From Natrinema versiforme (GTDB lineage: Archaea > Halobacteriota > Halobacteria > Halobacteriales > Natrialbaceae), in the NCBI RefSeq assembly GCF_005576615.1, contig NZ_CP040331.1, forward strand, positions 248,001-312,000: a stretch of 64,000 nucleotides of DNA, in the 5' to 3' direction. The notes beneath the pieces were generated by a model. It saw only the letters and a program-made list of their open reading frames with translations, had not been told where the DNA came from and made no database searches. Of the stretch, positions 24,118-32,396 are shown piece by piece; positions within the stretch are counted from its first letter, which is position 1, and every line of letters starts with the position of its first letter. The position numbers were made by a program, and so were the translations under genes.

Positions 24118-24858
24118 TTATATATTGACAGTATCGCGCGTGGCTTCACTAAACACCGAGTTCGTCAACCACCGTTCTGCTCTGCGGAGTCGGTACCGAA
24201 GCGTAGATTTCGGAAGATCAAGTTCATCAGCCATGTCCCCCAGAGATGCTTCTCGCGGTGTCTCGTAGTAGCCAAACTCAACTGCTGCCTCGATGGCTTG
24301 GCGCTGGTCGTGTGGGAGATCCATCTGCGAGATATCTGCGTTCAGCCAAGCCGACGGGGACCCGACCTGTTTGAGTGATAACTCGACTCCCCCTGGGAGG
24401 CCGTCTTGTAACCGGTCGAATATCTCACCACCCATCGTATCGCCCGGGAGCAGGACTCGCCACTCGTACACGTTCCCGCGCCGTCGCGCGTCGAACAGTG
24501 CCCCATTACCGACTGTCTGCGTCGTGAAGAAGGGTATCGAGTGGCAGTACCTCCCGCCTGATGAGTACGAGTAAATGAACCGACCTCCTCTCTCGTCTGC
24601 GACCACCTCGTGCTCTCCATCGATAGTGCAATCAGAATGCTCACCGAGGCACTCGTTGCACACAGAGTGATCCATCATCACTCGCTCTACTTTGTCCAGC
24701 GCATCATTCGGCCCGACGAACCGGTCGACTCGCCAGAGCCCCGCACTCGAGGCGGTAACCCGTAGTGCACGGCCGACGAGATCTGGATGGGAAATAAACA
24801 CATCCATGAGTGGATCAGCACCTCGCTCGTACTCGGCTGTAAGGATATATTCGCGCAT
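24118..24858 (-). CDS. Bat-type helix-turn-helix regulator
   Basis: A 246-residue protein. The C-terminal HTH_10 (bacterio-opsin activator) domain spans about 185-240: LPHDQRQAIEAAVEFGYYE then LGDMADELDLPKSTLRYRLRRAE. The N-terminal 180 residues form a haloarchaeal sensory domain with Cys residues C66, C69 and C75 (CNECLGEHSDC) that could bind metal or respond to redox. TTTATAG lies about 20 bp upstream of its start. It is divergent from the thioesterase gene. Bat-type proteins are transcription factors; target genes cannot be read here. Confidence 0.85.
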   Translation of the reverse strand: MREYILTAEYERGADPLMDVFISHPDLVGRALRVTASSAGLWRVDRFVGPNDALDKVERVMMDHSVCNECLGEHSDCTIDGEHEVVADERGGRFIYSYSSGGRYCHSIPFFTTQTVGNGALFDARRRGNVYEWRVLLPGDTMGGEIFDRLQDGLPGGVELSLKQVGSPSAWLNADISQMDLPHDQRQAIEAAVEFGYYETPREASLGDMADELDLPKSTLRYRLRRAERWLTNSVFSEATRDTVNI

Positions 24859-24922
24859 ATACAGGCTATAAATCTGGCCCTACAAACTTCTTTGGTCGCT
24901 TTCTTACAGATTATGGGTTTTG

Positions 24923-25561
24923 ATGTTGCGTATACGCGAACCAAGAACTACGGAGTACTCCCGTAAACGTTGTGGCGTGAACGAGACGGATACCCGAAGT
25001 CTGGAAATTGAGCTCCCCATCGCTGTGTACGAGCACCTGGAAGACGAGGACAAGACGGTTACGGAAACCCTCGCGGCTCTCGCGACGGGCCACGTACAGT
25101 TGCAAGAGTCCATCGAGACCTACACGAACCGAGAGGATGGAGGCGCAGGCTCTGACTCGAATCGGCTGGAAACGAGCCCGCCGATCGCTGAATTACTTGG
25201 GTTTCAGGTGGAGTCGTTTGGAAATGGCGAAGCGATCGTCACTTTCGATCCCGGGCCGGAACACGCCAATCCGATGGGAACGCTCCACGGTGGCGTTCTC
25301 TGCGACATCGGTGACATGGCGATGGGAGCCGCCTACGGGAGTACACTCGCCGACGACGAGTCGTTCACGACGCTCGAATTAGACGTCAAGTTCCGGCGAC
25401 CCGTGTGGGAGCAGCCTCTCACTGCGACGGGGCAGGTTATCGACGCAGGACGAACCGTGGGGCTAGTCACGTGTGATATTACCGGCCCGGATGGGGAACT
25501 CGTTGCACACCTCCAAAGTACCTGTTTGACGTTACGAGGTAACTCTGCGGAAGGGCGATGA
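24923..25561 (+). CDS. PaaI-family hotdog thioesterase with N-terminal extension
   Basis: The hotdog domain occupies about 75-212; the PaaI signature ANPMGTLHGGVLCDIGDMA (about 112-130) carries the catalytic His-Gly-Gly region. An N-terminal helical stretch (RSLEIELPIAVYEHLEDEDK, about 26-60) is unusual for a PaaI thioesterase and resembles a short oligomerisation or RHH-like segment. Start is uncertain: ATG 24923, or GTG 24977 (GTG-AAC-GAG) which would give a protein 18 residues shorter. A TATAAA box sits at about 24867-24872 in the divergent promoter. Substrate acyl-CoA unknown. Confidence 0.8.
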   Translation: MLRIREPRTTEYSRKRCGVNETDTRSLEIELPIAVYEHLEDEDKTVTETLAALATGHVQLQESIETYTNREDGGAGSDSNRLETSPPIAELLGFQVESFGNGEAIVTFDPGPEHANPMGTLHGGVLCDIGDMAMGAAYGSTLADDESFTTLELDVKFRRPVWEQPLTATGQVIDAGRTVGLVTCDITGPDGELVAHLQSTCLTLRGNSAEGR

Positions 25562-25690: not shown

Positions 25691-25790
25691 TCTGTCGCCC
25701 GATGCAGGGTCGGTCGACGCGATACGCATCACTCCCAAGGAATGGTACAAGCAGAAAGTCTTCAAAGATTATCCCGCGTTCAAAACGTTC
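25691..25790 (+). pseudogene. fragment of a Bat-type regulator
   Basis: The plus-strand frame reads SPDAGSVDAIRITPKEWYKQ and continues KVFKDYPAFKTF. This matches the internal segment DAGLIGAIQITPEGWYEQKV of the Bat-type gene at 26820-27494 and the corresponding part of 28688-29380. There is no start, HTH or continuation, so it is a decayed duplicate. Confidence 0.65.
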
Positions 25791-25818
25791 CTGACTCTGA
25801 CTGAGACTGCATTCAACG

Positions 25819-25938
25819 ATGAAGGCAGCAGTCTACAGAGGAAGGAGGCGAGATAGTATCGAAGAGCGACCCGAACCGGAAGTCGAGGAACCGGCGGATG
25901 CCATCGTCCGAATCACGCACACGGCTATCTGCGGGTAT
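25819..25938 (+). pseudogene. N-terminal fragment of a zinc-dependent alcohol dehydrogenase
   Basis: ATG 25819 starts MKAAVYRGRRRDSIEERPEP and continues to ADAIVRITHTAICG, matching the first 40 residues of the intact dehydrogenase at 30505. Homology stops at about 25938, three bases before the stop of the SDR gene on the other strand (25941). It is truncated and nonfunctional. Confidence 0.7.
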
Positions 25939-25940
25939 CG

Positions 25941-26705
25941 TCAGAGCTGTTGGTCGGTTGGCCGGATGAGCATCTCATTCACACTGACATGCTGGGGCCG
26001 GGTCACGGCGTACGCAATCGCATCTGCGATGTCCTCGCTCTGGAGCGGTGTGATTGACTCGAGAAAGCCCTCTTCTATCTGTTCTTTAATTTCGTCGTCA
26101 GGAATGTGTTCTTGGAGCTCGGTTTCGACCGCACCGGGTTCAATGATCGTCGTTCGAATTCCCTCGGTAGTGACTTCCTGACGGAGTGATTCGGAGAATG
26201 CGTTGACACCAAATTTCGTAGCGGCGTATCCCCCGTTATTCGCAATCGCGTCCCGACCGGCCGTCGAAGAGACGTTGACGATGTGGCCAGCATCCTGCTC
26301 CTGCATTACTGGGAGCGTGGCGTGGGTGAGGTTCATCAAGCCCAGTAGATTGACTTCGATCATCTGCCGGAAATTCTCACGGTCGGCCCGTTCAACAGGT
26401 TCGAGCAACATCACTCCGGCGTTGTTCACGAGGATGTCGATGCGACCGTATTCGTCGGTGGTCGTCTCGACGAGATTGTCGATGTCGTCTTTAGCCGTGA
26501 GATCAGTGGGTACCGAGAGTGCCTCACCGCCTGCCGATTCGATTTGACCGGCGAGTGCCTCAAGTTCCTTTTTGCGGCGGGCGGCAAGGACAACACTTGC
26601 ACCCCGCGAGGCGAGGGCCTCGGCCGTGGCCTCTCCAATACCAGACGACGCACCAGTTACAATCGCTACCTGTCCAGCCAGTTCAGATCCGACTCTGTCA
26701 GACAT
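25941..26705 (-). CDS. short-chain dehydrogenase/reductase
   Basis: A 254-residue classical SDR: TGASSGIG (18-25) cofactor loop, ILVNNAGV (about 93), catalytic YAATK (about 158) and serine in VNVSSTAG. An NAD(P)(H)-dependent oxidoreductase of unknown substrate. It is 60-70% similar by eye to the SDR at 27631, with a 68-nt block of perfect identity. Its promoter has TTTAAA-N12-ATAGCAT. Preceded on the same strand by a Bat-type gene whose stop is 114 bp upstream. Confidence 0.9.
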   Translation of the reverse strand: MSDRVGSELAGQVAIVTGASSGIGEATAEALASRGASVVLAARRKKELEALAGQIESAGGEALSVPTDLTAKDDIDNLVETTTDEYGRIDILVNNAGVMLLEPVERADRENFRQMIEVNLLGLMNLTHATLPVMQEQDAGHIVNVSSTAGRDAIANNGGYAATKFGVNAFSESLRQEVTTEGIRTTIIEPGAVETELQEHIPDDEIKEQIEEGFLESITPLQSEDIADAIAYAVTRPQHVSVNEMLIRPTDQQL

Positions 26706-26740: not shown

Positions 26741-26765
26741 ATGCTATACGGATAGGGCATTTAAA
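26741..26765 (-). promoter_or_regulatory. TTTAAA-N12-ATAGCAT promoter element of the SDR gene
   Basis: Read on the minus strand: TTTAAA (26765-26760), 12 nt, ATAGCAT (26747-26741), 35 bp before the start codon. The same arrangement, with the same 12-nt gap, is found before three other oxidoreductase genes here (28455-28431, 30351-30327 and 30436-30460). The TATA-like hexamer is probably the core promoter; ATAGCAT is a candidate operator or -10 region element. Confidence 0.55.
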
Positions 26766-26819
26766 TTACTCCGTGAAGAGAACATAAGACCTCGGGAAGC
26801 CGTTCGGAATCGTCGCTCG

Positions 26820-27494
26820 CTACTGCGAAAGTACCTCTAAACGCGTAGGTGAGCCAAGTGTCGCAGAGATAAGTTGCCGCTCGGCGCGGCCGAGAAGGTC
26901 AGACAGCGAGGGTTGAGAAATACCTAATTCGTCCGCGAGTTCTCTCGCGCTAGTCTGGCGCGGCTGTTCGTAGTAGCCCCGAGACATGGCGAGTGACAGT
27001 GCCTCATACTGTCGCTCCGTCAATCCGTACGGTGCCGATTCTTCGGACGCTGAGGTATCCTGTGAAATGGAGCCGATCTCGACCGAGATACCGTGCTCCT
27101 CACAGCTCGTCCTGAACGTATTGAACGCAGGATAGTCTTTGAACACCTTCTGTTCGTACCACCCCTCGGGGGTAATCTGTATTGCACCAATGAGGCCTGC
27201 ATCGGGAGTATTGTCGAACGCTTCCGCGACGGACTCTTTAAGCACCGATGCCACCTTGAATACGTGCCTTCCATTTACGGTTCCGAGATCGGTCGCTTCG
27301 AACACGTCATCGAGTTCCAAGAGCGTCTCCACAGAGAGCGGTTCAGCGGCGTCAATCTCGACAACTACCTGCTGGTGGCCCTGATTTAACCCGATCACAT
27401 GTGGGCACTGTACTTGGTTGGCCTGTTCCAAGTTGGCAAGGCTAACGAGCGGCAACAACGGTGAACGGAGGTGAACTTCAGCGGTAATCGGCAT
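26820..27494 (-). CDS. Bat-type helix-turn-helix regulator
   Basis: A 224-residue protein. The N-terminal half is an alpha-beta sensory domain (about 1-150: LRSPLLPLVSLANLEQANQ, VEIDAAEPLSVETLLELDDV, ITPEGWYEQKV). The C-terminal HTH_10 lies at about 160-215 (LTERQYEALSLAMSRGYYE, ARELADELGISQPSLSDLL). It is upstream of the SDR gene and in the same orientation, so it may regulate the redox genes. It is similar in length and order to the Bat-type gene at 28688-29380. No metal-binding Cys cluster seen. Confidence 0.85.
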   Translation of the reverse strand: MPITAEVHLRSPLLPLVSLANLEQANQVQCPHVIGLNQGHQQVVVEIDAAEPLSVETLLELDDVFEATDLGTVNGRHVFKVASVLKESVAEAFDNTPDAGLIGAIQITPEGWYEQKVFKDYPAFNTFRTSCEEHGISVEIGSISQDTSASEESAPYGLTERQYEALSLAMSRGYYEQPRQTSARELADELGISQPSLSDLLGRAERQLISATLGSPTRLEVLSQ

Positions 27495-27630
27495 TATCAG
27501 GAGGTACGTGCTGGCCGGGCTTCTCTATTAGTTTTTCTGAGGTGCGTTTTATTCGATAGGGCCCGGTGCCGCGACAGTATTCGTATCGTCGAAGGAGTCA
27601 TCCCCTTGTTGTCGGCTCCTTTTTCGAGAT

Positions 27631-28398
27631 TTAGGGTTGGACCTGATCGATCGGACGGACGAGAACTTCGTTGATGTCCATGTGCTCCGGTTGGGTGACG
27701 ACGAATGTAATCGTCCGGGCGATATCGTCTGGCTGGAGCGGGGTCAGGGACTCGTTGAGGTCCTCTATCTGTGCTTTGATTTCCTCATCAGCAATGGACT
27801 CCGGGAGTTCCGTGGCGACCGATCCCGGCTCGATTGTCGCCACCCGAATCCCCCCCTCCGCAACGTCCAGGCGGAGTGAATCGCTGAACATCTTCACACC
27901 GGCCTTCGATGCGTTGTAGTGCGACCCATTCGGCATCAGGAACCTCCCGACGACTGAGGAGAGGTTGACGATGTGACCGCTTTCTTGCTCCAGCATCGTG
28001 GGAATGACCGCGTGAGTGAGGGTGATTAGGCCGGTGAGATTGACGTCGATTGTCTTTTGGAGCGTCTCCCGCTCCGCCTCCGCGATATGGGTGAGGGGCA
28101 TGAGCCCAGCGTTGTTCACGAGGATGTCGATGCGACCGTATTCGTCGGTGGTCGTCTCGACGAGATTGTCGATGTCCTCGTCATCCGTGACGTCAGTCGG
28201 AACGACGAGGGCATCACCGTCTTCGTCTTCGATCTTTGACGCGAGTTCTTTGAGTTCGCCCTCGCGTCGTGCAGCAAGGACGACGCTCGCACCCCGCGAT
28301 GCGAGCGACTGAGCGGTTGCTTCGCCGATGCCCGACGATGCCCCAGTAATAATTGCGACCTGTCCCTCAAGTTCAGTACCGAAATCGCTTGTCATCAT
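27631..28398 (-). CDS. short-chain dehydrogenase/reductase
   Basis: A 255-residue SDR: TGASSGIG (19-26), NNAG (about 95) and YNASK (about 160). It is a close paralogue of the SDR at 25941 (same LVETTTDEYGRIDILVNNAG stretch), differing mainly after residue 105. The start at 28398 gives MMTSDFGTEL; an ATG one codon downstream is possible. Promoter TTTAAA-N12-ATAGCAT at 28455-28431. Divergent from the Bat-type gene at 28688. Substrate not predictable. Confidence 0.9.
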   Translation of the reverse strand: MMTSDFGTELEGQVAIITGASSGIGEATAQSLASRGASVVLAARREGELKELASKIEDEDGDALVVPTDVTDDEDIDNLVETTTDEYGRIDILVNNAGLMPLTHIAEAERETLQKTIDVNLTGLITLTHAVIPTMLEQESGHIVNLSSVVGRFLMPNGSHYNASKAGVKMFSDSLRLDVAEGGIRVATIEPGSVATELPESIADEEIKAQIEDLNESLTPLQPDDIARTITFVVTQPEHMDINEVLVRPIDQVQP

Positions 28399-28430
28399 CC
28401 AAAAGGAGGACCGAGGAAGGATTGAGTCTG

Positions 28431-28455
28431 ATGCTATGTCGATAGTGTCTTTAAA
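28431..28455 (-). promoter_or_regulatory. TTTAAA-N12-ATAGCAT promoter element of the second SDR gene
   Basis: Minus strand: TTTAAA (28455-28450), 12 nt, ATAGCAT (28437-28431), 32 bp before the start. Flanking bases after ATAGCAT (CAGACTC) also match the first SDR promoter (TAGACTC). Confidence 0.55.
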
Positions 28456-28687
28456 TACTCTCTCAAGACTGGAATCCTAGTTATTGCGCCGGCCAGGACG
28501 TTCACCGGCGTCTCTGTGTCGTCTGTGAACAGGACGTTATAGAAGGTGGGTGACCCGAGAACTGCGCCGGGACTCGAGAAGCCCCTTTAGACGTGATATT
28601 AACTTGCTGAGAGACCGGCCCAGAACTCTGACCAACACGGTATCCCCTGAATAAGCCCTTAATAGCACGCGGCGTTATGCCTATTCA

Positions 28688-29380
28688 ATGACAATCACAG
28701 TCGAGTTCTCAATGTATTCGCCCTCTCTTCCGCTCGTAGATCTTGTCGAATCGCTCCCGTTTCGACAATTGGAGTGCGAACATGGACTCTGTCTGAAGCG
28801 GGACAGTGACGTCTTCGTTATCCATATCGACCCAGGAGACGACATCTCTGAGGAGGACCTTTCGGCTTTTGATGAAGTTGTTGAGGCGACGTCGCTCGGG
28901 CGGACAAAGGGTAAGGATGTCTATCGACTCACGGTTGAACTGGTGGATGACATTTCGGAGGCGTTCACCCCCGAACGGTTTACTGCCGTTGAGGTAGAGC
29001 CGATGATCCTCACGCCGGACGGCTGGTACGAAAAGAAGGTCTTCGAGGACTACGAAACATTCGACCGGCTCCGAACTCGTTTTGAAGAGTATGGCATTTC
29101 GATTGAACTCATTTCGATCACGCAGGGGTCTGATTCGAGAGGTGACTCGCCACAATACGGACTAACAGACCGGCAATACGAGGCACTCACGCTCGCTATT
29201 TCTCGCGGATTCTATGAGAGTCCTCGACAGGTCTCCACCGAAGAATTGGCTGAAGAAATGGGAATCTCGCAACCGTCTATGTCAGATCTCCTCCGCCGCG
29301 GTGAGCGACAGCTCCTTTCGTCCGCACTTGAACCCCAAACCCACATCAACGCGCTTTCCGCACAGGAACGGCTCCAGTGA
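28688..29380 (+). CDS. Bat-type helix-turn-helix regulator
   Basis: A 230-residue paralogue of the regulator at 26820, with the same two-part layout: N-terminal alpha-beta domain (VIHIDPGDDISEEDLSAFD, ILTPDGWYEKKVFEDYETF) and a C-terminal HTH_10 (LTDRQYEALTLAISRGFYE, TEELAEEMGISQPSMSDLL, about 158-212). It is divergent from the second SDR gene, the usual arrangement for a regulator and its target. The 289-bp intergenic region 28399-28687 otherwise shows only the SDR promoter and low-information sequence. Confidence 0.86.
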   Translation: MTITVEFSMYSPSLPLVDLVESLPFRQLECEHGLCLKRDSDVFVIHIDPGDDISEEDLSAFDEVVEATSLGRTKGKDVYRLTVELVDDISEAFTPERFTAVEVEPMILTPDGWYEKKVFEDYETFDRLRTRFEEYGISIELISITQGSDSRGDSPQYGLTDRQYEALTLAISRGFYESPRQVSTEELAEEMGISQPSMSDLLRRGERQLLSSALEPQTHINALSAQERLQ

Positions 29381-29520
29381 TTTCGGTCCAGAATATCCCC
29401 GACTTGAGGGAAAATACGAATCTGATGTTTCTATCGCTGTATGGGGATTTCTGAGGGGATCGCTGGAAAGGATTGACGCGTGATCTCGGGTCAATTCATT
29501 CGGCAGCAAGACACTCCTGG

Positions 29521-30291
29521 CTAAAGGTCGAAGATCGCGTCCATTTCGGCGGTAGTTAGTTCGAAGTCGAATATCTCAATATTCTCTTCCTGATGCTGCC
29601 GTTTCGAGGCTTTCGGTATGGCAGACACATTTTCCTGTTGTATCAGCCAGCGAAGCACGACCTGTGCTGGGGATTTCCCGTACCGTTTGCCTACTCGAAT
29701 CAGGGTCTCGTTCTCGAGTCTTCTCCCGACGGCCAATGGACTGTAGGCGGTCAGCATCACATCATTGTCCACGCAGTACTCCAAGAGTTGCGATTGGTCT
29801 GTGAATGGGTGGTACTCGACCTGGTTCGTAACGATCGGCGTATCCGATGCTGCCTCCGCTTCTTGCAATTGCGGAAGAGAAAAATTGCTCACTCCAATAT
29901 GTTGGACACGCTCTGCCTCCTGAAGCTCGTTCATCGCCCTGACCGACTCCGTGACTGGGACGCTCTGACTCGGTTCGTGAATCAGTAACAGATCAACATA
30001 CTCCATTTTGAGCCGGTCCAAACTGTCCTCAAAGGAGTTCTGGAGGTCGTCGTACGCCAGATTTCGCCTGAGAATTTTCGTTACCACAAATACCTCGTCG
30101 CGGGCAACGTCTGCATTCTCGACGGCTTCTCCAACGGCGTCTTCATTCCCATACATCTGAGCCGTGTCAATATGACGATAACCGAGCCTAAGCGCAGTTT
30201 CTACTGCGTTCCGAGTTTCTGTTCCTCCCATCCGAGCGGTCCCGAACCCTAACGCTGGGATGTCTGCACCCTGAACTGAGACATACTCCAT
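29521..30291 (-). CDS. aldo/keto reductase
   Basis: A 256-residue AKR from ATG 30291 (MEYVSVQGADIPALGFGT); a frame extended to 30357 is rejected because the added 22 residues precede the conserved N-terminal barrel strand. The catalytic tetrad can be traced: D and Y in DTAQMYGNE (about 44-52), K in VTKILRRN (about 78) and H in LLIHEPSQ (about 108). The C-terminal QENVSAIPKASKRQHQEEN is the cofactor (NADPH-type) binding stretch. Its promoter carries TTTACC-N12-ATAGCAT. An aldehyde or ketone reductase of unknown substrate. Confidence 0.9.
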   Translation of the reverse strand: MEYVSVQGADIPALGFGTARMGGTETRNAVETALRLGYRHIDTAQMYGNEDAVGEAVENADVARDEVFVVTKILRRNLAYDDLQNSFEDSLDRLKMEYVDLLLIHEPSQSVPVTESVRAMNELQEAERVQHIGVSNFSLPQLQEAEAASDTPIVTNQVEYHPFTDQSQLLEYCVDNDVMLTAYSPLAVGRRLENETLIRVGKRYGKSPAQVVLRWLIQQENVSAIPKASKRQHQEENIEIFDFELTTAEMDAIFDL

Positions 30292-30326
30292 AGACAAGAG
30301 ATACAATGGCGATCCACATGGCTGTA

Positions 30327-30351
30327 ATGCTATGTGGAAAGCGCGGGTAAA
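30327..30351 (-). promoter_or_regulatory. TTTACC-N12-ATAGCAT promoter element of the aldo/keto reductase
   Basis: Minus strand: TTTACC (30351-30346), 12 nt, ATAGCAT (30333-30327), 35 bp before ATG 30291. The variant TATA-like box still keeps the 12-nt spacing seen at the two SDR genes and the dehydrogenase. Confidence 0.5.
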
Positions 30352-30435
30352 TAGCATCGTGAGTTGAGCGTGGAGTGAAGGTGAGCCCCAGTTTCGAAAG
30401 CAGGTTTAATTCTCCGTATTCGCCTCATCGGACTA

Positions 30436-30460
30436 TTTAAATAGGCTTTCTTGATAGCAT
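30436..30460 (+). promoter_or_regulatory. TTTAAA-N12-ATAGCAT promoter element of the alcohol dehydrogenase
   Basis: Plus strand: TTTAAA (30436-30441), 12 nt, ATAGCAT (30454-30460), 44 bp before ATG 30505. Sequence beyond the boxes differs from the others, which makes the shared boxes more meaningful. Confidence 0.55.
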
Positions 30461-30504: not shown

Positions 30505-31548
30505 ATGAAGGCAGCAACCTACCGAGGCCCCGGTGACGTTCGTATTGAAGAGCATTCTGCCCCCGAGATAGAGGAGTCAACAGACGCGGTCATCCGCATT
30601 ACGCACACCGCAATCTGTGGGTCGGATCTCTGGTTCTACCGTGGCCAAGAGGACTATGACGAAGGCGCGCCTGTCGGCCACGAACCGATGGGCATCGTTG
30701 AAAAGGTTGGCGACGACATCCGGCACGTTGAGCCGGGCGACCGCGTGTTCGCTGGGTTCGCTATCAGTTGTGGCGAGTGCGAGTTCTGCCGCAAAGGACT
30801 CCACACTGCGTGCACGAATGGTGGGTTCTGGGACGGCCCGGGTGTCGGCGGCGCACAAGCGGAGAAACTTCGTGTCCCACACGCCAACGGAACGCTCGTC
30901 CGTGTTCCAGACCGGTATGCGAACGATGAGGACACGCTCGAAGCACTACTCCCATTGACCGACGTGATGGGGACGGGCCACCACGCCGCTGTCTGCGCGG
31001 ACGTCGAGGCCGGCGACACGGCTGTGGTCATTGGTGACGGTGCAGTCGGACTCTGTGCCGTCCTCGCCTCGAAACGGCTCGGCGCGGAGCGCATCATCGC
31101 GGTCGGCCACCATGAGGATCGCCTCGAACTCGCTGAGGAATTTGGCGCGACAGAGACCGTCTCCAGCCGCGGTCAAGAAGCCATCGATGAAATCCAAGAC
31201 ATCACATACGGCGGTGCGAATCACGTCCTCGAATGCGTCGGTGCAGAATCCTCACTAGAGACTGCTGCAACTGTTGCCCGTCCCGGAGGGAGCATCGGCT
31301 ACGTTGGCGTACCACATGTCGAAGACCCGTCATTCCTCGAACCATTGTTCTTCAGCAACGCCTCGTTCACCGGTGGCCCCGCTCCCACCCGAGCGTACGC
31401 TGAGGAACTTATGGAGGATGTTCTCCAAGGCACTCTCGATCCGTCACCCATCTTCACGAAAACAGTCGACCTCGACGGCGTGCCGGAGGGGTACGAGGCG
31501 ATGGACGAGCGAGAGGCAGTGAAAGTCATGGTAAAAGTCGATGCATAG
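30505..31548 (+). CDS. zinc-dependent alcohol dehydrogenase (MDR superfamily)
   Basis: A 347-residue medium-chain dehydrogenase: catalytic-zinc Cys in HTAICGSDLW (about 38), a structural-zinc tetrad in CGECEFCRKGLHTAC (about 90-104), and a Rossmann GDGAVG loop near 176. It oxidises alcohols or reduces aldehydes with NAD(P). The N-terminal 40 residues are duplicated in the fragment at 25819. Followed 59 bp later by a third SDR on the same strand, probably cotranscribed. Substrate unknown; the family includes Zn-dependent threonine, sorbitol and formaldehyde dehydrogenases. Confidence 0.92.
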   Translation: MKAATYRGPGDVRIEEHSAPEIEESTDAVIRITHTAICGSDLWFYRGQEDYDEGAPVGHEPMGIVEKVGDDIRHVEPGDRVFAGFAISCGECEFCRKGLHTACTNGGFWDGPGVGGAQAEKLRVPHANGTLVRVPDRYANDEDTLEALLPLTDVMGTGHHAAVCADVEAGDTAVVIGDGAVGLCAVLASKRLGAERIIAVGHHEDRLELAEEFGATETVSSRGQEAIDEIQDITYGGANHVLECVGAESSLETAATVARPGGSIGYVGVPHVEDPSFLEPLFFSNASFTGGPAPTRAYAEELMEDVLQGTLDPSPIFTKTVDLDGVPEGYEAMDEREAVKVMVKVDA

Positions 31549-31607
31549 CGTATCGCTAAGCATCCGACGGACAAGTTACCAGATGACACGCCGAAGTGGA
31601 GGAACCG

Positions 31608-32396
31608 ATGTCACGTAATCAAGATCAAACTGTGCCGACGAGCGAGAAATTCGATTTCGGAGACAAGGTGGCGTTCATCTCGGGAGCGGCGGGCGGGATT
31701 GGCCGCGCCACGGCGCTCGCGTTCGCCCGCGAAGGAGCCGACGTCGTGGTCGCCGACATCGACGAGGAGGGTAACCAGGAAACGGCAGATCTGATCGAGG
31801 AGACTGGAAGTCGCGCACTCGCGGTTGCGTGCGACTTGCGGGAGTCCGAGGACGTCCAAGCGGCGCTAGATGCCGCCATAGCGGAATTCGGGCGTCTGGA
31901 CATCGCCTGTAACAATGCCGGTGTCGAACAAGGCCCCGAAAAGACAGCAGAACTGGACGAGGAAGAGTGGGACCGGATCATGGATACCGACCTGCGTGGG
32001 GTCTTCCTCTCGATGAAGTACGAGATCCCGCTCATCCTCGAACAGGATGGCGCAATTATAAACATCGCTTCGGGTGCAGGAATTAGAGGCTTCCCTGAAG
32101 CTGCATACGTCGCCGCGAAGCACGGCGTCGTCGGTCTCACGAAATCGGCAGCACTCGAATACGCGGACACTGATCTCCGTATCAACGCCGTCTGTCCTGG
32201 TATCATCGACACCTCGATGATGGATCGCGTCACCGACAATAGGGGCGCGGGCCGTCAATCGGTGATCGACCAAGAGCCGATCGGACGGATGGGGACGCCC
32301 GAAGAGATCGCGGATGCTGTCATCTGGCTGTGTTCGGATGCTGCCTCGTTCGTACTCGGACACCCGATGGTCGTCGACGGTGGTCAGACGGTGTAG
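31608..32396 (+). CDS. short-chain dehydrogenase/reductase (glucose-1-dehydrogenase-like)
   Basis: A 262-residue SDR from ATG 31608 (MSRNQDQTVP); an in-frame ATG at 31596 is less likely. SGAAGGIG (about 26-33), NNAGVEQGPE, and YVAAK near 165. The C-terminal PIGRMGTPEEIADAVIWLCS and VDGGQ are typical of FabG/glucose-dehydrogenase-type SDRs. It is a different branch from the two SDRs at 25941 and 27631. In operon with the zinc dehydrogenase. Confidence 0.9.
   Translation: MSRNQDQTVPTSEKFDFGDKVAFISGAAGGIGRATALAFAREGADVVVADIDEEGNQETADLIEETGSRALAVACDLRESEDVQAALDAAIAEFGRLDIACNNAGVEQGPEKTAELDEEEWDRIMDTDLRGVFLSMKYEIPLILEQDGAIINIASGAGIRGFPEAAYVAAKHGVVGLTKSAALEYADTDLRINAVCPGIIDTSMMDRVTDNRGAGRQSVIDQEPIGRMGTPEEIADAVIWLCSDAASFVLGHPMVVDGGQTV

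Follow-up and report, generated by a model that had tools for sequence, protein, structure and literature searches.

Four promoter sites in Natrinema versiforme most probably belong to a small regulon of reductase and dehydrogenase genes controlled by HTH_10 regulators encoded among them, as judged by sequence comparison. The sites lie together in the window, by which we mean the whole stretch of 64,000 nucleotides analysed (C3:248001-312000 on a 492-kb replicon; positions without a prefix are those of the window). In this comparison the site proved specific to one set of genes and linked to one type of regulator. The preliminary description had proposed a single regulon, perhaps under the neighbouring Bat-type regulators, and both parts of this proposal gained support: sites are found together with one HTH_10 subfamily, in this genome as in other haloarchaea, and the dyad within the site changes with the recognition helix of the regulator. 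Because of this linkage and co-variation, regulators of the core HTH_10 subfamily very probably recognise the operator.

The gene cluster and its promoter unit

Three proposed targets lie on the minus strand of the window: SDR1 (25941..26705, a short-chain dehydrogenase of 254 aa, Pfam adh_short), SDR2 (27631..28398, a short-chain dehydrogenase of 255 aa by Pfam) and an aldo/keto reductase of 256 aa (29521..30291, Pfam Aldo_ket_red), whose ATG at 30291 was picked from the sequence (a longer 278-aa ORF would overlap its own promoter). The fourth, on the plus strand, encodes a zinc-dependent alcohol dehydrogenase family protein (30505..31548, 347 aa, Pfam) and is followed 47 nt later on the same strand by SDR3 (31596..32396, 266 aa according to the ORF caller), an adjacency found again at loci L056 and L068. 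Two Bat-type regulators of the core subfamily, both recognised by Pfam HTH_10, are encoded between the targets. HTH_10a (26820..27494, minus strand, 224 aa) lies 136 nt downstream of SDR2 in the same orientation, and HTH_10b (28688..29380, plus strand, 230 aa) is divergent from SDR2. SDR2 with HTH_10a and the zinc dehydrogenase with SDR3 may each form an operon.

Each target had been described as preceded by TTTAMM-N12-ATAGCAT, and the four sites were confirmed in both position and strand. A genome-wide search with this pattern returned exactly four matches in 4,674,473 bases, all of them in one 3.7-kb cluster and none with the reversed control, and no random scatter of the motif through the genome was seen. 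When two mismatches were tolerated in a scan of the window, the same four matches alone were recovered, a number reached in 1 of 100 dinucleotide shuffles. The length of the 12-nt spacer held, but half of the site had been overlooked within it: CTWTC is conserved in all four sites, so the spacer is really N4-CTWTC-N3 and the full unit reads TTTAMM-N4-CTWTC-N3-ATAGCAT.

The SDR1 unit (26741..26765, minus strand, TTTAAA-N4-CTATC-CGT-ATAGCAT) scored 44.1 bits with the site matrix and contains the dyad CTATCCGTATAG (26744-26755, minus strand), and that of SDR2, which perhaps also serves HTH_10a (28431..28455, minus strand, TTTAAA-N4-CTATC-GAC-ATAGCAT), scored 46.6 bits and contains the dyad CTATCGACATAG (28434-28445, minus strand). 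The zinc dehydrogenase unit (30436..30460, plus strand, TTTAAA-N4-CTTTC-TTG-ATAGCAT, dyad 30446-30457) had been described as lying on the opposite strand and differing around the boxes, but it is the same kind of site and has the top matrix score of the four (51.2 bits). The box of the aldo/keto reductase unit (30327..30351, minus strand, TTTACC-N4-CTTTC-CAC-ATAGCAT, 36.7 bits) was correctly given as TTTACC; it reads as a TATA box with changes at two positions from the TTAAA of nearly all relatives, and this promoter may be weakened.

The conserved unit, TAYTTAAAYRCS-CTWTC-N3-ATAGCAY, combines a TATA box with a 12-bp pseudo-dyad downstream of it, CTWT-N4-ATAG. In the logo, TAYTTAAAYRCS-CTWTC-NNG-ATAGCAY-CR is followed 5 nt later by a conserved CYA. 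Boxes and spacing were kept while flanks and spacers diverged, and BRE positions showed little conservation. When the operator was sought alone and 40 nt upstream were scanned, a TAAR word lay at -8 in 34 of 35 cases, and 12 of the 47 operator matches were without any TAAR word. The median distance from the end of the motif to the start codon was 37 nt. TATA boxes are usually centred 26-29 bp upstream of the transcription start, and we therefore estimate that CYA is the start, predicted some 6-8 nt past ATAGCAT, and that the dyad covers roughly -25 to -8.

Linkage of site and regulator

The inner boxes alone, CTWTC-N3-ATAGCAT, matched the genome five times against one match for the reversed control, and the fifth match precedes an SDR gene at C3:63311. 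This gene, whose product is 81% identical to SDR2, belongs to a second cluster on the same replicon (about C3:62-67 kb) that encodes, besides the SDR, two HTH_10 regulators, two aldo/keto reductases, a cupin and a flavodoxin-like protein; further sites there lie before an aldo/keto reductase (C3:64908) and the cupin (C3:65921). The predicted regulon thus exceeds four genes, with three more promoters on the same replicon. A relaxed whole-genome pattern returned the seven promoters of the two clusters and 4 other matches, compared to 6 for the reversed control. Other motif matches in the genome (L006-L010, L012 and L013), without a TATA box in place or a target gene of this kind, were set aside as chance.

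A profile of the subfamily, run against the genome, found about 49 HTH_10 relatives. The best scores, 326-370 bits, belong to four of them, with the next at 117; these four, two in each cluster, are the only regulators of the core subfamily. The site matrix reached 43-51 bits at these four loci, compared to at most 5.7 bits at 26 other HTH_10 loci of the genome.

In other haloarchaea, loci found through the motif with the TATA box correctly placed carried it before genes for SDRs, zinc-type alcohol dehydrogenases, cupins or aldo/keto reductases, or before pieces of such genes, and a subfamily regulator was nearly always present within a few kilobases. Exact matches without a TATA box in place (L053-L055, L058-L060 and L065-L067) had no such target genes and were set aside as chance. 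For the reverse test, loci were fetched by the regulator alone and a site was counted at 20 bits or more. Locus counts are not independent, because many loci are closely related and some places were retrieved more than once; by this count 27 of 28 regulator-fetched loci had at least one site (56 sites, preceding SDR, zinc-type alcohol dehydrogenase, aldo/keto reductase and cupin genes), compared to 0 of 5 loci of distant HTH_10 proteins (plasmid-borne, under 34% identity). Permuted matrices run on the regulator-fetched loci gave nothing at 20 bits, and together with the genome-wide counts they rule out a chance origin of the sites as a whole.

A search of a second sample of 195 genomes with the regulator profile, which overlaps the first sample in part, found sites in 18 of 19 core loci versus 0 of 9 loci of a sister subfamily. 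Loci L148 and L086 have the regulator and no site. The core subfamily is patchily distributed and often plasmid-borne, and the unit recurs in several haloarchaeal families; apparent targets at other loci also include an alpha/beta hydrolase and a second oxidoreductase of the zinc type.

The regulators and their operators

HTH_10 (PF04967) matched HTH_10a and HTH_10b at 66.8 and 66.5 bits, against a cut-off of 23.1. The Pfam scan of both proteins returned HTH_10 only, with no PAS or GAF domain, so neither qualifies as Bat proper, and no NCBIfam model matched either. A sequence search against solved structures yielded no more than weak HTH matches. A fold search with an AlphaFold model (mean pLDDT 81.9, pTM 0.59) returned a sigma-4/LuxR-like HTH, and the N-terminal domain resembled part of Ta1207 (5m86; Z 9.9, rmsd 3.3, 140 aligned), a match that does not name the ligand. 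Cys30 and His32 of this domain are at least 90% conserved in the subfamily. Clusters with two core regulators and one operator type are common (the window, L014, L049, L050, L063, L083 and L094), and a division of labour or heterodimers are possible. No copy of the operator that could serve autoregulation was found on the same strand in the 250 nt before 33 regulator genes.

The core subfamily combines the recognition helix ISQPSxSxLLRR (ISQPS) with the operator CTWTC..GATAGCAY, also written CTWTC..GATAGCAT. The sister subfamily has VSAAAASDLLRR (VSAAA) in place of this helix. At 8 of 8 of its loci in one genus (L150-L157) the promoter that follows has the sequence ATAAAYGGG-CTTATC-AG-TAAGCR, and its TATA spacing equals that of the core; the dyad, CTTATCAGTAAGC, precedes an SDR related to SDR1, where the gene is recognisable. 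Near a third type of regulator (L089:13228, ISAPSVSDLLRR, ISAPS) lies a promoter with CTAATC-AG-TTAGCAC, dyad CTAATCAGTTAGCAC and TATA at -8. All three operator types are 4-4-4 dyads; the inverted repeat is exact in CTAT-N4-ATAG, CTTA-N4-TAAG and CTAA-N4-TTAG and imperfect in CTTT-N4-ATAG, the form of most sites. Across these three clades, two of them narrow, a different recognition helix goes with a different dyad sequence at an unchanged position. Of the sequence evidence, this speaks most strongly for binding of the dyad by HTH_10 proteins.

The published denitrification dyad, CGAACATGTTCG, occurs once in the genome, at C3:186845 (L162), before another HTH_10 gene (L162:803-1546, minus strand) and a divergent membrane-protein gene. 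This occurrence of CGAACATGTTCG is likely to serve a different HTH_10 subfamily as its operator.

In 16 of 41 subfamily genes, several of which are close relatives, the 3' end of the regulator gene overlaps the promoter unit that serves the following gene. The overlap keeps one register: CTWTC begins exactly 9 nt ahead of the stop codon, and aTAGcat of the operator supplies the TAG stop (for example L014:7917, L064:4953, L068:8667 and L094:5664; another of the 16, L097, is weak at 9.2 bits). Because the register is fixed, TTAAAC-ACS-CTTTC is translated into the C-terminus LNTLSx that is common in these proteins. The genes that follow differ (aldo/keto reductase, cupin or zinc-type alcohol dehydrogenase), and relatives with no site at the 3' end still often have similar terminal residues. 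The 3' end of HTH_10b holds a copy of the unit (29342..29376, plus strand, cacatcaacgcg-CTTTC-CGC-ACAGGAA, 20.7 bits) that has probably decayed; relatives carry an intact one there.

Sign of control and related systems

A regulator dimer would bind the dyad through the recognition helix ISQPSxSxLLRR, as its co-variation with the dyad indicates. Because the site falls between the TATA box and the expected transcription start, a regulator bound without inducer might keep the TBP/TFB/RNA polymerase complex from assembling freely. Relief might then come when the N-terminal domain (with Cys30 and His32 as candidates) senses an electrophile such as a reactive carbonyl or a quinone. The target enzymes suggest reactive carbonyls, quinones or similar compounds as the inducer. 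The sign of control is unsettled, with the position of the site favouring repression and the characterised relatives and rigid spacing favouring activation. If the regulon is granted, repression with induction is about evenly poised, and we lean slightly towards it; activation or a MerR-like two-way switch then falls just below that.

That the same regulon and regulators work by activation, with a dimer 3' of TATA contacting TBP/TFB or distorting the core promoter in a MerR-like manner, is a substantial possibility short of being probable. Such a fixed-geometry contact with TBP/TFB would make up for the missing BRE contact, and the weak conservation of BRE positions speaks for it, as does a TATA spacing that is invariant across non-homologous targets and three operator types, although rigid spacing could partly reflect one ancestral promoter. 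Against activation, the dyad would sit where polymerase contacts and melts DNA. In MerR-type bacterial promoters the site lies inside the core promoter with strict spacing, and YqhC, of the YqhC-yqhD-dkgA aldehyde system, controls an alcohol dehydrogenase and an aldo/keto reductase; in both cases the regulators and basal machinery are unrelated to those of HTH_10, and the likeness is one of analogy only.

An activating role is reported for the characterised HTH_10 regulators NarO, DmsR and Bat, together with nitrate-dependent repression in the case of NarO (PMC11218638, PMC10062603), and mutation of the denitrification dyad lowered promoter activity (PMC10062603), both in favour of activation. 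Against it, the effect of OxsR in Haloferax volcanii depends on where its motif lies with respect to BRE/TATA, and sites 3' of TATA are associated with repression (PMC9426492); OxsR is likewise a haloarchaeal stress regulator with a position-dependent effect, but it belongs to another protein family (TrmB) and its motif is CG-rich.

The published denitrification dyad CGAAYATDKTYG (CGAA-CATG-TTCG) has the same 12-bp, 4-4-4 layout and lies 66-79 and 319 nt before the start codon (PMC10062603). NarO and DmsR resemble the regulators of the window in having an HTH_10 domain, small size with no PAS or GAF domain and a 4-4-4 dyad at nearby metabolic genes (PMC11218638, PMC10062603). In contrast, the arms here are CTWT/ATAG, the targets are different, and the dyad has a fixed place directly 3' of TATA, whereas the published distances vary. 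The NarO/DmsR dyad CGAAC-N2-GTTCG was not found at the target promoters of the window, where the sites read CTWTC-N3-ATAGCAT. Hattori reportedly assigned the denitrification dyad to NarO in 2016. Bat, the bacterio-opsin activator, shares the HTH_10 domain and differs from HTH_10a and HTH_10b in its PAS and GAF domains (PMC11218638). A description of the motif, or of such a target site for Bat-type regulators, was not found in the literature searched (mostly open papers, and so weak evidence).

It is improbable that the regulon is real and its reader is encoded elsewhere, or is an alternative TBP/TFB pair for which ATAGCAT serves as an extended core element. The element does lie inside the core promoter, and TBPs and TFBs exist in several versions in haloarchaea. 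However, a TBP/TFB element would be expected at many promoters, and the genome has only seven, which accompany the four core HTH_10 genes without exception; the dyad varies with the recognition helix of the HTH_10 protein, and the linkage is kept in many genera. Recent copying of genes or clusters is a very improbable source of the likeness, even with SDR1 and SDR2 related and two similar clusters on one replicon, given that the targets are non-homologous enzyme families, the unit recurs in several haloarchaeal families, and divergence has affected flanks and spacers but spared boxes and spacing, orthologues giving no sign of boxes and flanks diverging equally.

If its fixed position within the core promoter is functional, the dyad with its HTH_10 regulators would represent a kind of control that is unusual for an archaeal promoter. 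HTH_10 proteins are very numerous in haloarchaea and mostly uncharacterised, few having known targets; here subfamily, operator, promoter geometry and targets are tied together, and a natural change of specificity becomes directly testable. We regard it as possible, if rather unlikely, that HTH_10 regulators are in part in-core switches, with a dimer on a 4-4-4 dyad at an invariant distance 3' of TATA and arms set by the helix; if so, the operators of further paralogues could be read from nearby promoters at the corresponding position. The sites might also find use as inducible promoters for halophiles.

Beside the cluster, the window holds a fragment of a subfamily-type regulator (25698-25805, plus strand) followed at 25819 (plus strand) by the first 40 or so codons of a zinc dehydrogenase (MKAAVYRG...ITHTAICG), and this region (25698-26000) is probably the relic of a third regulator-target unit. 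At 24118-25561 an HVO_2928-type HTH_10 gene and a thioesterase gene lie side by side, a pair that also adjoins a core regulator in Halobacteriales archaeon YIM A00010 (L068).
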